A DNA stretch of 64,000 nt, from assembly GCA_021797855.1 (NCBI GenBank), contig JAJZYX010000001.1, forward strand, positions 124,001-188,000, written 5' to 3'. A program made the position numbers and the translations under genes. Below, piece by piece: positions 1,676 to 8,530 of this stretch (positions are counted from its first letter, which is position 1; each line of letters begins with the position of its first letter). The DNA is from Thermoplasmata archaeon (GTDB lineage Archaea; Thermoplasmatota; Thermoplasmata; Thermoplasmatales; GCA-001856825). The notes under the pieces were generated by a model. It did not search any database and was not told the DNA's origin. It saw nothing but the letters and a program-made list of their open reading frames with translations.

Positions 1676-3400
1676 ATGAGATTTATGAGTTCAGGATATA
1701 TTAAGCAAGAGACGGACGTTCTAATAATCGGGGCAGGAGGGGCTGGCATGAGAGCGGCTATCGCCGCATACGATTCTGGTTCCCGGGTCACGATACTTTC
1801 GAAGTCTCTGCTGGGGAAGGCACATACTGTCATGGCTGAAGGTGGGATCGCAGCTGCCCTCGCAAATGTGGACTCAAAGGACAGTTGGGAGGTCCATTTC
1901 GCTGACACCATGGAGGAAGGTGTTTACATATCGAACTACAGGATGGCAGAGATATTGGCAAAGGAAGCCCCTGACAGGGTTAGGGAGCTGGAAGAGTATG
2001 GAGCCCTCTTTGACAGAACCCCGGATGGTACCATAATGCAGAGAGCGTTCGGCGCACACACCTACAGGAGACTTTGCCATGTAGGAGACAGGACCGGCCT
2101 TGAAATTATAAGGACGCTCGAAGACCAGATACTCCACAGGGACATAAAATTCTTTGATGAATTCTATGTCACAAAACTGCTAAAGGACGGGGAGCGAGTA
2201 GTTGGAGCAATGGGAATAAAGCTAAACACTGGGGAATTCTACGTTTTCAGCTCCAAGGCCGTTATAATAGCAACAGGAGGGTGCGGTAGAATTTATAAAG
2301 TCACGTCCAACTCGTGGGAATCAACAGGTGATGGTCTCGGTCTGGCCTATGAAGTGGGTGCAGAACTGATGGATATGGAGATGATACAGTTCCACCCTAC
2401 CGGAATGGTTTTCCCGCCTGGAGTCAAGGGGTTGTTAGTTACAGAGGGGGTTAGAGGTGAAGGAGGCATACTTCTCAACGCTCAGGGGGAGAGATTCATG
2501 CAGAGATACTCCCCCAAGAAACTTGAACTGGATGCGAGAGACATTGTTGCAAGGGCCAATTACGCTGAGATAATGGCAGGCAGGGGTACACCTCATGGAG
2601 GGGTGTATCTTGATATAACGCACAAGGGTGCGGACTTCATAAAGAAGAAGCTGCCAAGCATGTACAAGCAGTTCATGGACTTCGCTGGAGTCGACATAAC
2701 CAAAGAGAAGATGGAAGTCGCACCCACGGTCCACTATCAGATGGGAGGTATAAGAGTGGATCCAGAGAGCACTGCCACAACCATCCCCGGTCTCTTCGCA
2801 TCTGGCGAGGTAGCAAGCGGTTTGCATGGTGCCAACAGATTGGGAGGCAATTCCCTCGCAGACATACTTGTCTTTGGCAAAAGGAGCGGGGATGGGGCAT
2901 CTGCGTATTCGAAGGGAGTCCCATTCGGCAGGATTGACGAGAAGGAAATAGAGGCTGAGATCGAAAGGGTAAAATCGTTCGTGGGACGGGACGGGCTCAA
3001 TCCCTACACAGTAGCCGAGAGATTAGAAGAAAACATGAGCCAAAACGTTGGAATCATCAGGAATGAAGAAGGCCTCAAAAAGGCACTGTCTACCATTCAG
3101 GAGCTGAAAGAGCTGTCTAAGAAAGTGGCTGTCAATGGGAGCTTGAAATACAACAAGGGACTCCTTCAGGCACTGGAGCTGCCTTCCATGCTCATTGCAG
3201 CTGAGGCTATCGTTAGAGGAGCTCTGGAGAGAAAAGAAAGCAGAGGTGCTCATGCACGGAGCGACTATCCGAAGAAGAATCCTGAAATGAGGAAGAATAT
3301 AATTTACAGAAAAGGAGTGGAAGGGATGATTCTTGAATGGAGACCAGTCCCTGAGATGCCCGAGCAGCTGAAGAAGTTGGTGAAGGAGGAGGAATACTGA
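1676..3400 (+). CDS. sdhA: Succinate dehydrogenase/fumarate reductase flavoprotein SdhA (Sdh1-like operon)
   Basis: Flavoprotein subunit, 574 aa, oxidising succinate to fumarate. It shows the FAD Rossmann motif GAGGAG (19-24), the AHTVMAEGG segment with H50 as the probable covalent FAD attachment site, QFHPTGM and GVRGEGG substrate-loop motifs, and HYQMGG near the active site. It opens a compact operon: the stop TGA overlaps the sdhB ATG, then come an unusual membrane subunit and a tiny membrane protein. A second, different SdhA is encoded 1.7 kb downstream. Whether this copy runs as dehydrogenase or fumarate reductase cannot be told from sequence. ATG 1676 is used; ATG 1685 (M4) is also possible. 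Confidence 0.93.
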   Translation: MRFMSSGYIKQETDVLIIGAGGAGMRAAIAAYDSGSRVTILSKSLLGKAHTVMAEGGIAAALANVDSKDSWEVHFADTMEEGVYISNYRMAEILAKEAPDRVRELEEYGALFDRTPDGTIMQRAFGAHTYRRLCHVGDRTGLEIIRTLEDQILHRDIKFFDEFYVTKLLKDGERVVGAMGIKLNTGEFYVFSSKAVIIATGGCGRIYKVTSNSWESTGDGLGLAYEVGAELMDMEMIQFHPTGMVFPPGVKGLLVTEGVRGEGGILLNAQGERFMQRYSPKKLELDARDIVARANYAEIMAGRGTPHGGVYLDITHKGADFIKKKLPSMYKQFMDFAGVDITKEKMEVAPTVHYQMGGIRVDPESTATTIPGLFASGEVASGLHGANRLGGNSLADILVFGKRSGDGASAYSKGVPFGRIDEKEIEAEIERVKSFVGRDGLNPYTVAERLEENMSQNVGIIRNEEGLKKALSTIQELKELSKKVAVNGSLKYNKGLLQALELPSMLIAAEAIVRGALERKESRGAHARSDYPKKNPEMRKNIIYRKGVEGMILEWRPVPEMPEQLKKLVKEEEY

Positions 3401-4146
3401 TGGATAGTGTGACTGTTAGCGTTTATAGGAGGGATCCAGCAACGGAGAAGGAGGGGAGGTATGTGGACTATGTGGTTCCAAGGGAGGAGGGAATGGTAGT
3501 ACTTGATGCGATGAAGTACATTGAGAGGCACATCGATCCTACCCTTTCTCTCAGATGGAACTGCATGGCGGGGAAGTGTGGCTCTTGTTCAGCAGAAATA
3601 AATAATAAACCATCACTTATGTGCAAGACTAGAATAGATTCGTTAAAGGATGGAAAGATAAAGGTCTCTCCGATTGCCGCATACCCCCTTATAAAGGACC
3701 TTGCTACTGACGTATCGCAGAACTGGGACCTGCTAAAAAGGATACCCCCGTTCACTCCGAGGGAGGGGCTAGAGAGGCCTTGGAGAATCTCTCAGGTGGA
3801 CATTGAGAGGTCCAAGGAATTCAAGAAGTGTATAGAGTGCTTCCTGTGCCAGGATGTCTGCCACGTGATAAGGGAGCACAAGGCAGGATACTTCGGGCCA
3901 AGGCATGTGGTCAAGGCCGCATCCCTGGACATGCATCCTCTGGATTCCCTTGACAGATCCGAATTCATGAACAAGGACGCAGGGTTAGGGTACTGCAACA
4001 TCACAAAGTGCTGCACGGAGGTCTGCCCAGAGGAGATACATATTACAGACAACGCAATAATCCCCGAGAAGGAGAGGGCCGTAAATGCTCAATACGATCC
4101 CATAGCGATATTTCTGAGATCCAGGAGGAAAGGTGGGAAAAGATGA
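3400..4146 (+). CDS. sdhB: Succinate dehydrogenase iron-sulfur subunit SdhB (Sdh1-like operon)
   Basis: Iron-sulfur subunit of 248 aa. The N-terminal ferredoxin domain carries the [2Fe-2S] ligands C55, C60, C63 and C75. The C-terminal domain has C144-x2-C147-x2-C150-x3-C154 and C199-x4-C204-C205-x3-C209-P for the further clusters. The second group has two adjacent cysteines (CCTEVCP) and the first lacks the proline of classical SdhB, so cluster ligation differs in detail from the second SdhB of this window. The CIECFLCQDVCH segment followed by GPRH and MHPLD is like actinobacterial Sdh1/Frd-type proteins as I recall them. The gene overlaps sdhA by 1 nt and the membrane subunit by 4 nt, so the subunits are probably translationally coupled. 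Confidence 0.92.
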   Translation: MDSVTVSVYRRDPATEKEGRYVDYVVPREEGMVVLDAMKYIERHIDPTLSLRWNCMAGKCGSCSAEINNKPSLMCKTRIDSLKDGKIKVSPIAAYPLIKDLATDVSQNWDLLKRIPPFTPREGLERPWRISQVDIERSKEFKKCIECFLCQDVCHVIREHKAGYFGPRHVVKAASLDMHPLDSLDRSEFMNKDAGLGYCNITKCCTEVCPEEIHITDNAIIPEKERAVNAQYDPIAIFLRSRRKGGKR

Positions 4147-4862
4147 AGGCTGCAAACGAGTCTTCGTGGAAGCAGTTGATACCCCCGGAATTCCTCGAAC
4201 CAAACTGGAGGTTCTGGTCCTTTGTCTTCATTTCCATTCTCGGGTCCATACTCATTGTTCTCTATACAGTCCCGGTCTATGACGGACTCACGGACCCTTT
4301 CTACACTCCCACCGTTCTTATCCTTCCTCTGGTGGTCCTCTTCAGGCTTACCTGCTACGCTTACAGAAAGGACTACCACAGGCATCTGTTCAACCACCCT
4401 AACACCTGCGCGGCTGATGTCAGACTGGACTCTGGGAAAAGAGGCTATACCGGTGAGACAGGATTCTTCAGGATAGAGAACGTGCACCGTTACTTCATGT
4501 ACACAGCATGGGGGATACTACCATTCTTCTATTACGATATATACCATTCCATAGTATATACAGGCGCCATTACAGTGAGCCTAGGTACTGTAATACTGAC
4601 GATAAATGCGGTTGCCGTGACAGTATACACATTCTCCTGCCACTCGGTCAGGCACCTGATCGGCGGCTACAGGGACTGCGTGAACTGCCCTGCAAACAGG
4701 AACAGCAAGAATTCGCTCTACAGATTCCAGTCGAGGCTAAACGGTCACCACGAGGCGATAGCCTGGACTAGCCTGATAATGTTCGTCTTTGTGGATTTGT
4801 TCATCAGGGGAATGGTTGCCGGCATAATTCCAAACATTGTTCTCATTCACGGGGTGTTGTGA
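4143..4862 (+). CDS. Sdh1-type membrane anchor with CH-x3-H-x7-C-x2-C cluster (possible membrane Rieske centre)
   Basis: Membrane protein of 239 aa with about five hydrophobic helices (near residues 20-43, 50-67, 107-128, 130-165 and 205-235). It does not look like the small SdhC/SdhD anchors. Helix 4 ends in C166-H167-x3-H171, followed by C179-x2-C182; L69-T-C71-Y and an ENVHRYF segment are also present. This pattern recalls the SdhC-like subunit of mycobacterial Sdh1, in which a membrane-embedded Rieske-type [2Fe-2S] cluster has been described. The homology claim is from memory of that family; two His plus two or three Cys are seen directly. ATG 4143 overlaps the sdhB stop; a longer in-frame reading from 4008 is rejected because it runs inside sdhB. 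Confidence 0.75.
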   Translation: MKAANESSWKQLIPPEFLEPNWRFWSFVFISILGSILIVLYTVPVYDGLTDPFYTPTVLILPLVVLFRLTCYAYRKDYHRHLFNHPNTCAADVRLDSGKRGYTGETGFFRIENVHRYFMYTAWGILPFFYYDIYHSIVYTGAITVSLGTVILTINAVAVTVYTFSCHSVRHLIGGYRDCVNCPANRNSKNSLYRFQSRLNGHHEAIAWTSLIMFVFVDLFIRGMVAGIIPNIVLIHGVL

Positions 4863-4866
4863 CGAT

Positions 4867-5037
4867 ATGATGAAAATTCTACCCTCAAGGTACAGGTACC
4901 CTCTCTTCTTTTTCGGAATACTCCTAATGGAAATGGCGGGCGTACTCTACAAACTCACAGACCTTGGGAAGACAGGTACAGAAGGAATAGTGATAGTGGG
5001 CTTCATCATTTTCGCTTCCTCTATTCTTGTCGCCTAA
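4867..5037 (+). CDS. Small two-helix membrane protein at the end of the first sdh operon
   Basis: A 56-aa protein starting at ATG 4867 (or ATG 4870), 4 nt after the membrane-anchor stop. A short basic N-terminus (KILPSRYRYP) is followed by two hydrophobic segments, about residues 9-26 and 36-56, with LTDLGKTG between them, so it is likely a hairpin in the membrane. Position and spacing suggest an accessory subunit of the first succinate dehydrogenase, comparable to small extra anchors of other complexes. No family was recognised. It is followed directly by a stem-loop. Confidence 0.55.
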   Translation: MMKILPSRYRYPLFFFGILLMEMAGVLYKLTDLGKTGTEGIVIVGFIIFASSILVA

Positions 5038-5123: not shown

Positions 5124-5152
5124 CGTCATGCACTCCCTAATTGGAGATCTAT

Positions 5153-6868
5153 TTGGTCGAAATCTTCGATTACGATCTAGTTATTGTAGGGTCAGGACTT
5201 GCGGGTCTTAGGGCTGCCATCGAGGCGGCAAGAACTGGAAATGGGAAGTTGCGCATTGCGATAATCGCAAAGAACCAGCTCATGAGGCCCCATTCGATTT
5301 CCGCGGAGGGTGGTTCTGCAGCAGTGCTGTATACAGAGGAAGGGGATTCATTCGACCTCCACGCCTACGACACGATAAAGGGTTCTGATTATCTTGGTGA
5401 CCAGGATGTGGTTGAATTTTTCGTCAGGCAGTGTCCTGTAGACGTACTAGAGCTTGAACACTGGGGCATACCCTGGGCAAGGAGGGAAGACGGGCGGATT
5501 GCCCAAAGACCCTTCGGCGGTCATTCATACCCCAGGGCAACCTTCGCATCCGACAGGACAGGATTCTATGAGGTGCATACCCTCTATGATACTCTGCTGA
5601 AGTATGGTAATGTGGACAAGTATCATGAGCAGTTCGTATACGATTTCATAATAGAAAACAACAGGTTCAAGGGGGTTATGGCCCTCGACATTCCCACAGG
5701 TCAGATAAGAATATTCAAGGCGAGGGCTGGAATCATCGCCACTGGTGGCTTGGGCAGGCTCTATGGATATACAACCTATTCTCACCTGGTTACAGGAGAC
5801 GGGCTGGCGATCGCTCTAAGGAGAGGAATGAGGCTGAAAGATATTGAATTTATACAATTCCATCCAACCGGCCTAGTTCCTTCGGGCATACTCATAACTG
5901 AGGGCGTTAGGGGGGATGGCGGCATCCTGAGGAACGCCAAAGGTGAAAGGTTTATGGAAAAGTATGCACCCACTAAGAAGGACCTCGCCCCTAGGGACAT
6001 TGTGTCCCGTAGTATGATGACAGAGATTCTTGAAGGGAGAGGGTTCAAAGGTCCGAATGGGCTTGACTACCTTTTGCTTGATTTTTCACCCATAGGTGCG
6101 GAAAAGATCAAGGAAAAGCTTTCACAGGTTAGGGAAATAGGGATGCATTACGTTGGCATAGACCCCCTCGAGTCTCCCCTCCCAGTCAGGCCGGCGGCTC
6201 ACTATACTATGGGAGGGATTGATGTGACCAGGACCGGATTCACTGGGATCACAGGATTGTGGGCTGCTGGGGAGGCTGCCTGCTATTCAGTGCATGGCGC
6301 AAATAGGTTGGGGGCTAACTCCACGAGCGAGTGTATCGTCTTCGGAAAGATTGCCGGAGGGGAATCGGCCAAATGGTTGCTCAAAGACAACGGGATGATT
6401 ACTCTATCAGAAGGTGAAATGAGTTCTGCGGAAGATTTCATCTCCGACGCATACAAGGACAAGGGTGACAACGACCCGTATGAAATAAAGAGGGAACTCT
6501 GGTCTACTATGGATAAGTACGCATACGTTTTCAGGAATGAGAAGGACCTCACAGAAGGGCTGAAGGTCATAAGAGGGTTAATTGAAAGGAGCGGGAAAAT
6601 AAGCATTTCTGAAAAGGGGAATGTGTACAATCAGAACCTAATCTCCACCCTGGAGATGAAGAATCTTGTAGAGCTAGCGGAGGTTGTGGTGTTCTCTGCA
6701 CTTCAAAGGAAAGAGAGCAGAGGTTCCCATTTCAGGACCGACTACCCCAAGAGGGACGACGAAAACTTCCTGAAACACACTATTATCCAGAGGGTGGACG
6801 GTGCACCCCAGATAACCTACCGCCCTGTAACGCTCACCAAATGGAAACCAGAGCCTAGGGTGTACTGA
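5153..6868 (+). CDS. sdhA: Succinate dehydrogenase flavoprotein SdhA (classical SdhACDB operon)
   Basis: Second flavoprotein subunit, 571 aa. Motifs: GSGLAG FAD loop (13-18), RPHSISAEGG with H47 as the likely covalent FAD site, QFHPTG, GVRGDGG and AAHYTMGG. It is clearly diverged from the SdhA at 1676, so this is not a recent duplication. There is no ATG in frame: TTG 5153 is preceded by GGAG at 5143-5146 with a 6-nt spacer and lies a few nt after the predicted transcription start; TTG 5141 is the longer alternative. Order with the following genes is A-C-D-B. Confidence 0.92.
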   Translation: MVEIFDYDLVIVGSGLAGLRAAIEAARTGNGKLRIAIIAKNQLMRPHSISAEGGSAAVLYTEEGDSFDLHAYDTIKGSDYLGDQDVVEFFVRQCPVDVLELEHWGIPWARREDGRIAQRPFGGHSYPRATFASDRTGFYEVHTLYDTLLKYGNVDKYHEQFVYDFIIENNRFKGVMALDIPTGQIRIFKARAGIIATGGLGRLYGYTTYSHLVTGDGLAIALRRGMRLKDIEFIQFHPTGLVPSGILITEGVRGDGGILRNAKGERFMEKYAPTKKDLAPRDIVSRSMMTEILEGRGFKGPNGLDYLLLDFSPIGAEKIKEKLSQVREIGMHYVGIDPLESPLPVRPAAHYTMGGIDVTRTGFTGITGLWAAGEAACYSVHGANRLGANSTSECIVFGKIAGGESAKWLLKDNGMITLSEGEMSSAEDFISDAYKDKGDNDPYEIKRELWSTMDKYAYVFRNEKDLTEGLKVIRGLIERSGKISISEKGNVYNQNLISTLEMKNLVELAEVVVFSALQRKESRGSHFRTDYPKRDDENFLKHTIIQRVDGAPQITYRPVTLTKWKPEPRVY

Positions 6869-6877
6869 GGTGATTAA

Positions 6878-7327
6878 ATGACCATAGAGAACAAAAAGGG
6901 ATGGATTTCCTGGTTCAACCCCTTCAAGTACGGTTCCGATAGATGGATGTTCGCCCTTCACAGACTCACCGGCATTGTGCTTGGACTCTATCTCATAGCC
7001 CATGTGTGGGAGACCTCGAACATACTCAACGGACAAGTGACGTGGAACAAGATCATGGTGGACCTTGATTACCCATTCGGCGTCCACTTCGGACCTTACA
7101 TTCTCTCACTGGTCTTGGTGGCAGCGGTGTACCATGCCTTCAACGGCATAAGGCTCACTATAGTAGAGAACGGGCTGATGCTCCCCAGACCGTACAGACC
7201 GGAATATCCCTACAAGGCGAAATCCCTGAGCGGGCTCAACAACGTGCTCAAAATAGTTCTGGGAATTTTCATGATTGCAGTGAGTGCAATTGGAATCATC
7301 TACATATTTACAGGGGTGATAATATGA
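6878..7327 (+). CDS. sdhC: Succinate dehydrogenase cytochrome b subunit SdhC
   Basis: Membrane anchor of 149 aa with three transmembrane helices. It contains the SdhC signature HRLTG (H28-G32) at the start of helix 1, H42 in the same helix, and H86 in VYHAFNGIRL, the usual haem b ligand region. The gene lies 9 nt after sdhA2 and overlaps sdhD by 4 nt (ATGA). This operon thus has the ordinary two-subunit haem anchor, in contrast to the single five-helix subunit of the upstream sdh operon. Confidence 0.88.
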   Translation: MTIENKKGWISWFNPFKYGSDRWMFALHRLTGIVLGLYLIAHVWETSNILNGQVTWNKIMVDLDYPFGVHFGPYILSLVLVAAVYHAFNGIRLTIVENGLMLPRPYRPEYPYKAKSLSGLNNVLKIVLGIFMIAVSAIGIIYIFTGVII

Positions 7328-7725
7328 GGGAGTCTCAGATAATGTTCCTTCAATATATGACTGGCCTCCTTATCCTGGTTTTCGGGTCATTTCACTTCCT
7401 TCTGATAAGCGTCCTTTCCCCGAGCCCCCAGAAGGTGCTGTACATTTACAGCGGCATCAATGCGTCGCACATCCTTGTGGGAGGGACTTTATATTACACC
7501 TGGGTCAAGGCAGTCTACTCATCCCTCATCTGGGGGTCCGTTTTCGAGCTGCTTCTCACCTTCCTCGTTTATCATGTGTTCAACGGTTTCAGGGTGATCC
7601 TGTCGGAGATTATTCCTGGTGGAAGAGCTGAAAAGGCTATCACTTATATTCTCTTTATAGCGGGGCTCATAGTTTTCATCTGGGGGACCAGAACTGTTGT
7701 CATAGGACTTGGAGGAGGCTTCTAA
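7324..7725 (+). CDS. sdhD: Succinate dehydrogenase membrane anchor SdhD
   Basis: Anchor protein of 133 aa with three predicted transmembrane helices and a YHVFNGFRV motif in helix 2 that parallels the SdhC sequence and supplies a candidate haem-ligand His. ATG 7324 overlaps the sdhC stop. The stop is followed after 1 nt by the sdhB2 ATG. Together SdhC and SdhD should bind haem b and the quinone. Confidence 0.85.
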   Translation: MRESQIMFLQYMTGLLILVFGSFHFLLISVLSPSPQKVLYIYSGINASHILVGGTLYYTWVKAVYSSLIWGSVFELLLTFLVYHVFNGFRVILSEIIPGGRAEKAITYILFIAGLIVFIWGTRTVVIGLGGGF

Positions 7726-7726
7726 A

Positions 7727-8530
7727 ATGGAACAGCTTATCCTTAAGGATTTCGGTGAGGTCGTCAAGACCGTGACTTTCAGGGTAAGACGGTACGACCC
7801 GGAGAAGGATGATGCGCCTAGGTATGAAGAGTACAGGGTTCCCGTTCAGAAAGGAATGACTGTCCTGGACGGGATTTTGTACATAAAGGAACATATAGAT
7901 CATACTCTTTCCGCACGCTATTCCTGCAGGATGGGTATCTGCGGATCGTGCGGCATGATTATAAACGGGAAGGAGAGGCTTGCTTGCCAGACGCAGATAC
8001 TTGAGCTGGGCAAGGATCTGATAAAGGTAGACCCGATGGGGAATTACGAGGTCGTTAAGGACCTCGTTCCTGATCTTTCCAAATTGTTCAGGAATCATCA
8101 GAACGTCAAGCCCTTTATAATCAGGGATGAGGAGGAACCCAAGGGGGAATACCTCCAGACTCCTGGACAGAGGGAAAGGTATGCAATGTTCACAGATTGT
8201 ATCCTGTGCGGCCTCTGTCTCTCTGCCTGCCCGACAAGCGCGTCTGATGAGCTCTACCTAGGACCGCAGGCACTGGCACAGGGGTTCAGGTACATAGCAG
8301 ACAACAGGGACCTTGGATTCGAGGAGAGACTGAATGTTCTTGACTCAAAGCATGGAGTATGGAGATGCCACTTCTCCGGCGCGTGCTCCGAGGTCTGCCC
8401 TAAGGGAGTAGACCCAGCGCTGGCAATACAGCTGCTGCGACAAGTGATGACAACAAACGTCTTCGTAAGGTTCAAACAGAAGGGGACGGAAACAGGCCCC
8501 GAAAGAAAGTCTGTTTCAGGTGTGTCGTGA
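7727..8530 (+). CDS. sdhB: Succinate dehydrogenase iron-sulfur subunit SdhB (classical operon)
   Basis: Iron-sulfur subunit, 267 aa, with the full classical set: [2Fe-2S] C67, C72, C75, C87; [4Fe-4S] C158-x2-C161-x2-C164-x3-C168-P; and C214-x5-C220-x3-C224-P-K-G of the [3Fe-4S] region. ATG 7727 is chosen over an upstream TTG at 7709 because GGAGG at 7711-7716 gives a good ribosome-binding site and the TTG lies inside sdhD. It is the last gene of the operon, with about 60 nt to the complex I operon. Confidence 0.93.
   Translation: MEQLILKDFGEVVKTVTFRVRRYDPEKDDAPRYEEYRVPVQKGMTVLDGILYIKEHIDHTLSARYSCRMGICGSCGMIINGKERLACQTQILELGKDLIKVDPMGNYEVVKDLVPDLSKLFRNHQNVKPFIIRDEEEPKGEYLQTPGQRERYAMFTDCILCGLCLSACPTSASDELYLGPQALAQGFRYIADNRDLGFEERLNVLDSKHGVWRCHFSGACSEVCPKGVDPALAIQLLRQVMTTNVFVRFKQKGTETGPERKSVSGVS

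Follow-up and report, generated by a model that had tools for sequence, protein, structure and literature searches.

The closest described relative of the locus analyzed here is Sdh1 of Mycobacterium smegmatis, a class F complex II whose structure was reported with a membrane Rieske-type cluster (PMC10238741). Among the solved structures we searched, mycobacterial Sdh1 is the only complex II that carries a centre of this type in the membrane. As for archaea, complex II of A-, E- and Gplasma was described in 2013, in work on archaea from acid mine drainage, as 'missing SdhD', its SdhC annotation being of low confidence (PMC3750248), and the marine group II archaea were described with a canonical complex II (PMC6336850).

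The operon under study occupies positions 1676-4862 of the window (the whole stretch of 64,000 nucleotides that was analyzed), on the forward strand. It consists of sdhA (1676..3400), encoding an FAD subunit of 574 aa with the FAD-linking His in GKAHTVMAEGG, sdhB (3400..4146, 248 aa) and sdhC (4143..4862, 239 aa), which encodes the sole membrane subunit, with five long helices. These genes are followed by a small gene (4867..5037) for a protein of 56 aa with two predicted membrane helices, a candidate fourth subunit, and then, directly 3' and on the same strand, by a classical SDH operon (5141..8530) in the order A-C-D-B. The latter is made up of a classical sdhA (5141-6868; NF004724, 840 bits against a cut-off of 826), two anchor genes that both match Sdh_cyt, sdhC (6878-7327) and sdhD (7324-7725), and, as its last gene, sdhB (7709-8530). 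A first-pass annotation of the window had proposed an Sdh1-like complex next to a classical enzyme, with a Rieske-type cluster in its membrane subunit; the adjacent classical enzyme is there as it described. The source assembly measures 0.89 Mb, is 52% complete and holds one copy of the 239-aa SdhC. Upstream, at 70-1570, the SDH operon is adjoined by genes for a methyltransferase and a TYW1-type radical SAM protein (wyosine synthesis), a linkage that none of the compared loci outside the window's family shows; the Cuniculiplasma locus could not be placed by its neighbouring genes, the upstream methyltransferase/TYW1 pair being confined to that one family in this comparison.

The assignment of the operon to class F begins with its membrane subunit. 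A phmmer search of the PDB with SdhC returned a single match up to E=10, 7d6v_C (E=9e-25, far beyond chance), and a profile built from 62 relatives matched the same chain at 1e-88. This chain, 7D6V chain C, is the membrane-anchoring subunit of M. smegmatis Sdh1, a class F complex II (PDB 7D6V/7D6X). SdhC was further modelled with AlphaFold2 on a 62-sequence alignment (pLDDT 78.1, pTM 0.75; this model superseded an earlier run with 15 sequences, pLDDT 68.6), and a Foldseek search with the model again recovered 7d6v_C (E=1.5e-7, TM 0.60, rmsd 7.4, a moderate overlap) and no other match at E <= 0.001. The model is weak in loops, with pLDDT below 50 at residues 81-88 and 100-104, and places long membrane helices at 22-40, 57-83, 111-138, 147-165 and 203-225. 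The five helices that had been read from the letters were recovered by structure prediction.

Searches of Pfam and NCBIfam gave no matching model for SdhC. Two other identities were considered for this protein and rejected: that of a class A/B haem anchor of the Sdh_cyt type, given the absence of a Pfam match for SdhC and the matches of both anchors of the neighbouring operon, and that of a Rieske-domain protein of the bc1 or Rieske ferredoxin type, as it has neither a Rieske family match in Pfam or NCBIfam nor the C-x-H...C-x2-H motif of soluble-type Rieske proteins.

The two soluble subunits were assigned from their family matches and their relatives. SdhB matched NF009052/PRK12386 with 320 bits, above the curated cut-off of 256, which none of 14 control genomes reached (three archaeal controls scored below it). 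All 12 of its Cys are invariant in 87 of 87 relatives, and by homology the cluster ligands were assigned as C55/C60/C63/C75 for the putative [2Fe-2S] centre, C144/C147/C150/C209 for the [4Fe-4S] centre and C154/C199/C205 for the [3Fe-4S] centre. A further Cys, C204, lies just ahead of the third predicted [3Fe-4S] ligand (CNITKCCTEVCP) and is itself invariant in 87/87 class F SdhB sequences. For SdhA the best NCBIfam match was NF005866/PRK07803, at 772 bits and hence below the curated cut-off of 819, alongside Pfam matches to FAD_binding_2 and Succ_DH_flav_C, and in a tree this subunit clusters with bacterial class F. A Glu (in AEGG) beside the FAD-linking His occurs in both SdhA proteins of the window (1676-3400 and 5141-6868) and in 139/139 extracted class F sequences. 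Taken together, the matches of SdhC and the Sdh1-type SdhB support the reading of 1676-4862 as an archaeal Sdh1-like (class F) complex II beside a classical enzyme, in agreement with the first-pass annotation.

We then turn to the residues that could hold a cluster in SdhC. Conservation was assessed in 159 distinct SdhC core sequences from many phyla, M. smegmatis included, which were collected by protein or profile searches of whole genomes and by pattern scans of contigs. Strictly invariant Cys and His were only five, each in 159/159 sequences: C71 in helix 2 (4353..4355), C89 in cytoplasmic loop 2 (4407..4409), H115 at the start of helix 3 (4485..4487), C166 at the end of helix 4 (4638..4640) and H203 at the start of helix 5 (4749..4751), all on the + strand; the contig patterns contained C71 or C166-H167-x3-H171, and so in that part of the sample the conservation of those residues is inflated and that of C89, H115 and H203 is unbiased. 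A Rieske-type centre requires a pair each of Cys and His. No His other than H115 and H203 is invariant, and so these would most likely be the His ligands, with the two Cys drawn from C71, C89 and C166; on this count, the five residues suffice for a putative [2Fe-2S] centre of the Rieske type at the cytoplasmic face. As to their side of the membrane, the extramembrane positive charges of SdhC are confined to its N-terminus and to loops 2 and 4, and by the positive-inside rule this would put the invariant residues at the cytoplasmic side, beside SdhB.

The ligand set originally proposed for the cluster was a different one, namely C166, H167 and H171 together with C179 and C182. The reading frame of 239 aa at 4143-4862, C166-H167-x3-H171 and C179-x2-C182 are all present exactly as claimed, these residues do lie near the membrane face, and the CxxC is found in 12/12 Thermoplasmatales rows of our tree. 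Conservation in an alignment had been named by the first-pass annotation as the test of this set, and in the 159 sequences C179 and C182 failed it: C166 held throughout, H167 is His in 157/159 (Asn in two Planctomycetota sequences) and H171 in 156/159 (Tyr or Ser in three sequences of the Chloroflexota sample), and C179 and C182 are present in 66/159 and 62/159, respectively, being missing from 93-97 of the 159 sequences and from M. smegmatis Sdh1. Given the poor conservation of C179 and C182 and the exceptions at H167 and H171, that ligand set was rejected and we regard it as very improbable; the idea of a cluster stands, with other ligands. Most likely these are H115 and H203 with two of C71, C89 and C166, and not C179/C182, with the near-invariant H171 as a less likely candidate. 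The invariant C71, C89, H115 and H203 and the gene at 4867-5037 had gone without mention in the first-pass annotation.

Invariant His could also be read as haem ligands. Class A/B haem anchors use His on helices, and the His of SdhC are likewise placed on helices, so that they might carry a b-type haem as in those anchors, with no cluster at all. Against this, SdhC matches none of the haem-anchor families of Pfam and NCBIfam, its invariant His are accompanied by three invariant Cys, and the solved homologue was described as a Rieske enzyme (PMC10238741), which together make a haem in place of the cluster highly unlikely. The Rieske-type centre remains the preferred reading.

The loop-4 pair C179-x2-C182 (4677..4688, + strand) is then best described as a subfamily motif, not as Rieske ligands. 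One suggestion for it is a second metal or disulfide site, existing besides the Rieske-type cluster in a subfamily that covers all Thermoplasmatales. Such a site would fit the largely two-state distribution of loop-4 Cys in the 159 cores (an exact CxxC pair in 63, no Cys in 76, one in 18 and three in 2) and the 6 changes of the CxxC on an 80-row tree, the motif being missing from the sequences of M. smegmatis and Streptomyces. It is weakened by the SdhC model, which is weak at loop 4, and by the failure to identify a partner residue that co-varies with the CxxC; in SdhB in particular there is no co-varying Cys, since every Cys of that subunit is invariant. A second site of this kind is possible but less likely than not.

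Having characterized the three subunits, we examined the small gene that follows sdhC. A profile built from 12 sequences was searched against 117 genomes of the order and matched in 56, the same 56 that hold a class F sdhC, and in all 56 the small gene sits directly 3' of sdhC and shares its strand, the two matches being 14-45 nt apart. It was found in 0/61 genomes of the order that are without class F sdhC. Its length within the genus is always 56 aa, its variation falls mostly on third codon positions (26, 20 and 52 for the three positions), and within the genus dN is about 0.16-0.23 against a dS that is mostly above 1, demonstrating that the gene is under purifying selection. The protein, which contains an R/K-Y-P-x-F motif and two hydrophobic stretches, matches no Pfam or NCBIfam family above cut-off and has no equivalent among the class F loci compared from bacteria and other Thermoplasmatota.

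On a plain reading, the small protein would be an accessory subunit or a dedicated assembly factor. Small membrane proteins can act as assembly factors, and such a role is conceivable for this one; an unrelated neighbour, on the other hand, would hardly follow sdhC so closely, with 56/56 genomes on one side and 61/61 on the other. To the alternatives to a subunit, namely an assembly factor or a neighbour unrelated to the complex, we assign together a sizeable minority chance, and continue with the small protein as a probable subunit.

The order of the genes and their distribution set the Thermoplasmatales loci apart. The order is A-B-C in 12/12 Thermoplasmatales class F loci and C-A-B in bacteria and in the other Thermoplasmatota (reduced to C-A or a lone C where the contig ends). 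Class F was counted in 105/293 genomes of Thermoplasmatota, 28/149 of Acidobacteriota, 35/151 of Chloroflexota and 36/199 of Actinomycetota, that is, 18-36% per phylum, with thresholds and queries that differ between phyla. A pattern scan of contigs gave at least 80 matches, the 80 listed being bacterial, and a plasmid search gave three matches, likewise all bacterial. In a concatenated A+B+C tree, obtained by a quick tree search and with skewed composition in eight rows, the Thermoplasmatales (support 100) fall among Chloroflexota and one Actinomycetota clade, apart from the other Thermoplasmatota, and forcing all archaeal rows together gave a tree 129 log-likelihood units worse (AU p = 1.7e-6). 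Because of this separation and the AU test, it is likely that Thermoplasmatota gained class F from bacteria at least two times. The other Thermoplasmatota loci, a separately acquired class F with the order C-A-B, lie near Myxococcota, Acidobacteriota and Marinimicrobia-type sequences.

Where genomes of the window's family have class F, its operon adjoins the classical one. Across the order the pairing is not general: of the 56 genomes with class F, 37 gave no classical SdhA scoring like that of the neighbouring enzyme, among them a single-contig genome rated 99% complete, and in these 37, class F must therefore serve as complex II, if any does. A few loci of Chloroflexota and Actinomycetota also have class F beside a classical-type SDH/FRD. 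A broader account, by which the class F of Thermoplasmatales is a four-subunit enzyme, gained separately from bacteria, with reordered genes and a CxxC that may hold an extra metal or redox site, that replaced the haem enzyme in many genera, is one we consider possible, its chances falling just short of even.

To summarize the mechanism we propose, it is quite probable that the operon encodes a class F succinate:quinone oxidoreductase with a Rieske-type [2Fe-2S] centre in SdhC. Succinate would be oxidized by SdhA on its covalent FAD, from which electrons would pass along the three Fe-S centres in SdhB to the putative Rieske-type [2Fe-2S] cluster, held by SdhC at the cytoplasmic membrane side, and on to quinone; in Thermoplasmatales the complex would probably also include the two-helix protein of 56-67 aa encoded just 3' of sdhC. 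This reading is backed by homology, the operon, residue invariance, the helix layout, positive-inside topology and the co-occurrence and purifying selection of the small gene, and from these we infer cluster binding, the electron path, the direction of the reaction and the place of the small protein as a subunit.

The presence of these invariant residues in archaea restricts the choice of candidate ligands and indicates that this design crossed domains at least twice. It also provides acidophilic archaea with no complex II found other than class F, and the small gene that accompanies sdhC makes a concrete candidate for a new subunit. The 'missing SdhD' of A-, E- and Gplasma would be explained by the one-protein anchor of class F, which suggests a link between their complex II and this class. 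Furthermore, some of the Thermoplasmatota families with class F may be marine group II.

Compared with class A complex II, for which two b haems were described (PMC10238741) and which is represented by M. smegmatis Sdh2 and, in general kind, by the operon at 5141-8530, the class F enzyme shares the reaction and homologous SdhA and SdhB subunits, whereas class A has two Sdh_cyt anchors, with no family match in common with class F SdhC. The class F operons of Acidobacteriota, Chloroflexota, Actinomycetota, Myxococcota, Planctomycetota and others have the same three genes and the same invariant residues, and the bacterial ones differ in their C-A-B order and in having no match to the small protein in the loci compared. 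Relative to M. smegmatis Sdh1 itself, the archaeal locus has a single membrane subunit that is homologous (36% identity across the aligned part), an Sdh1-type SdhB, an SdhA that is probably of this type, and the five invariant residues, which correspond to C114, C132, H155, C206 and H240 in the count of 7D6V chain C. It differs from the mycobacterial enzyme in having the loop-4 CxxC, in its A-B-C order as against the C-A-B of the bacterial loci compared, and in adding the small two-helix protein and a tandem classical SDH. SdhC is an archaeal member of class F, and the new element of this locus is the rearranged operon with its co-occurring small gene.
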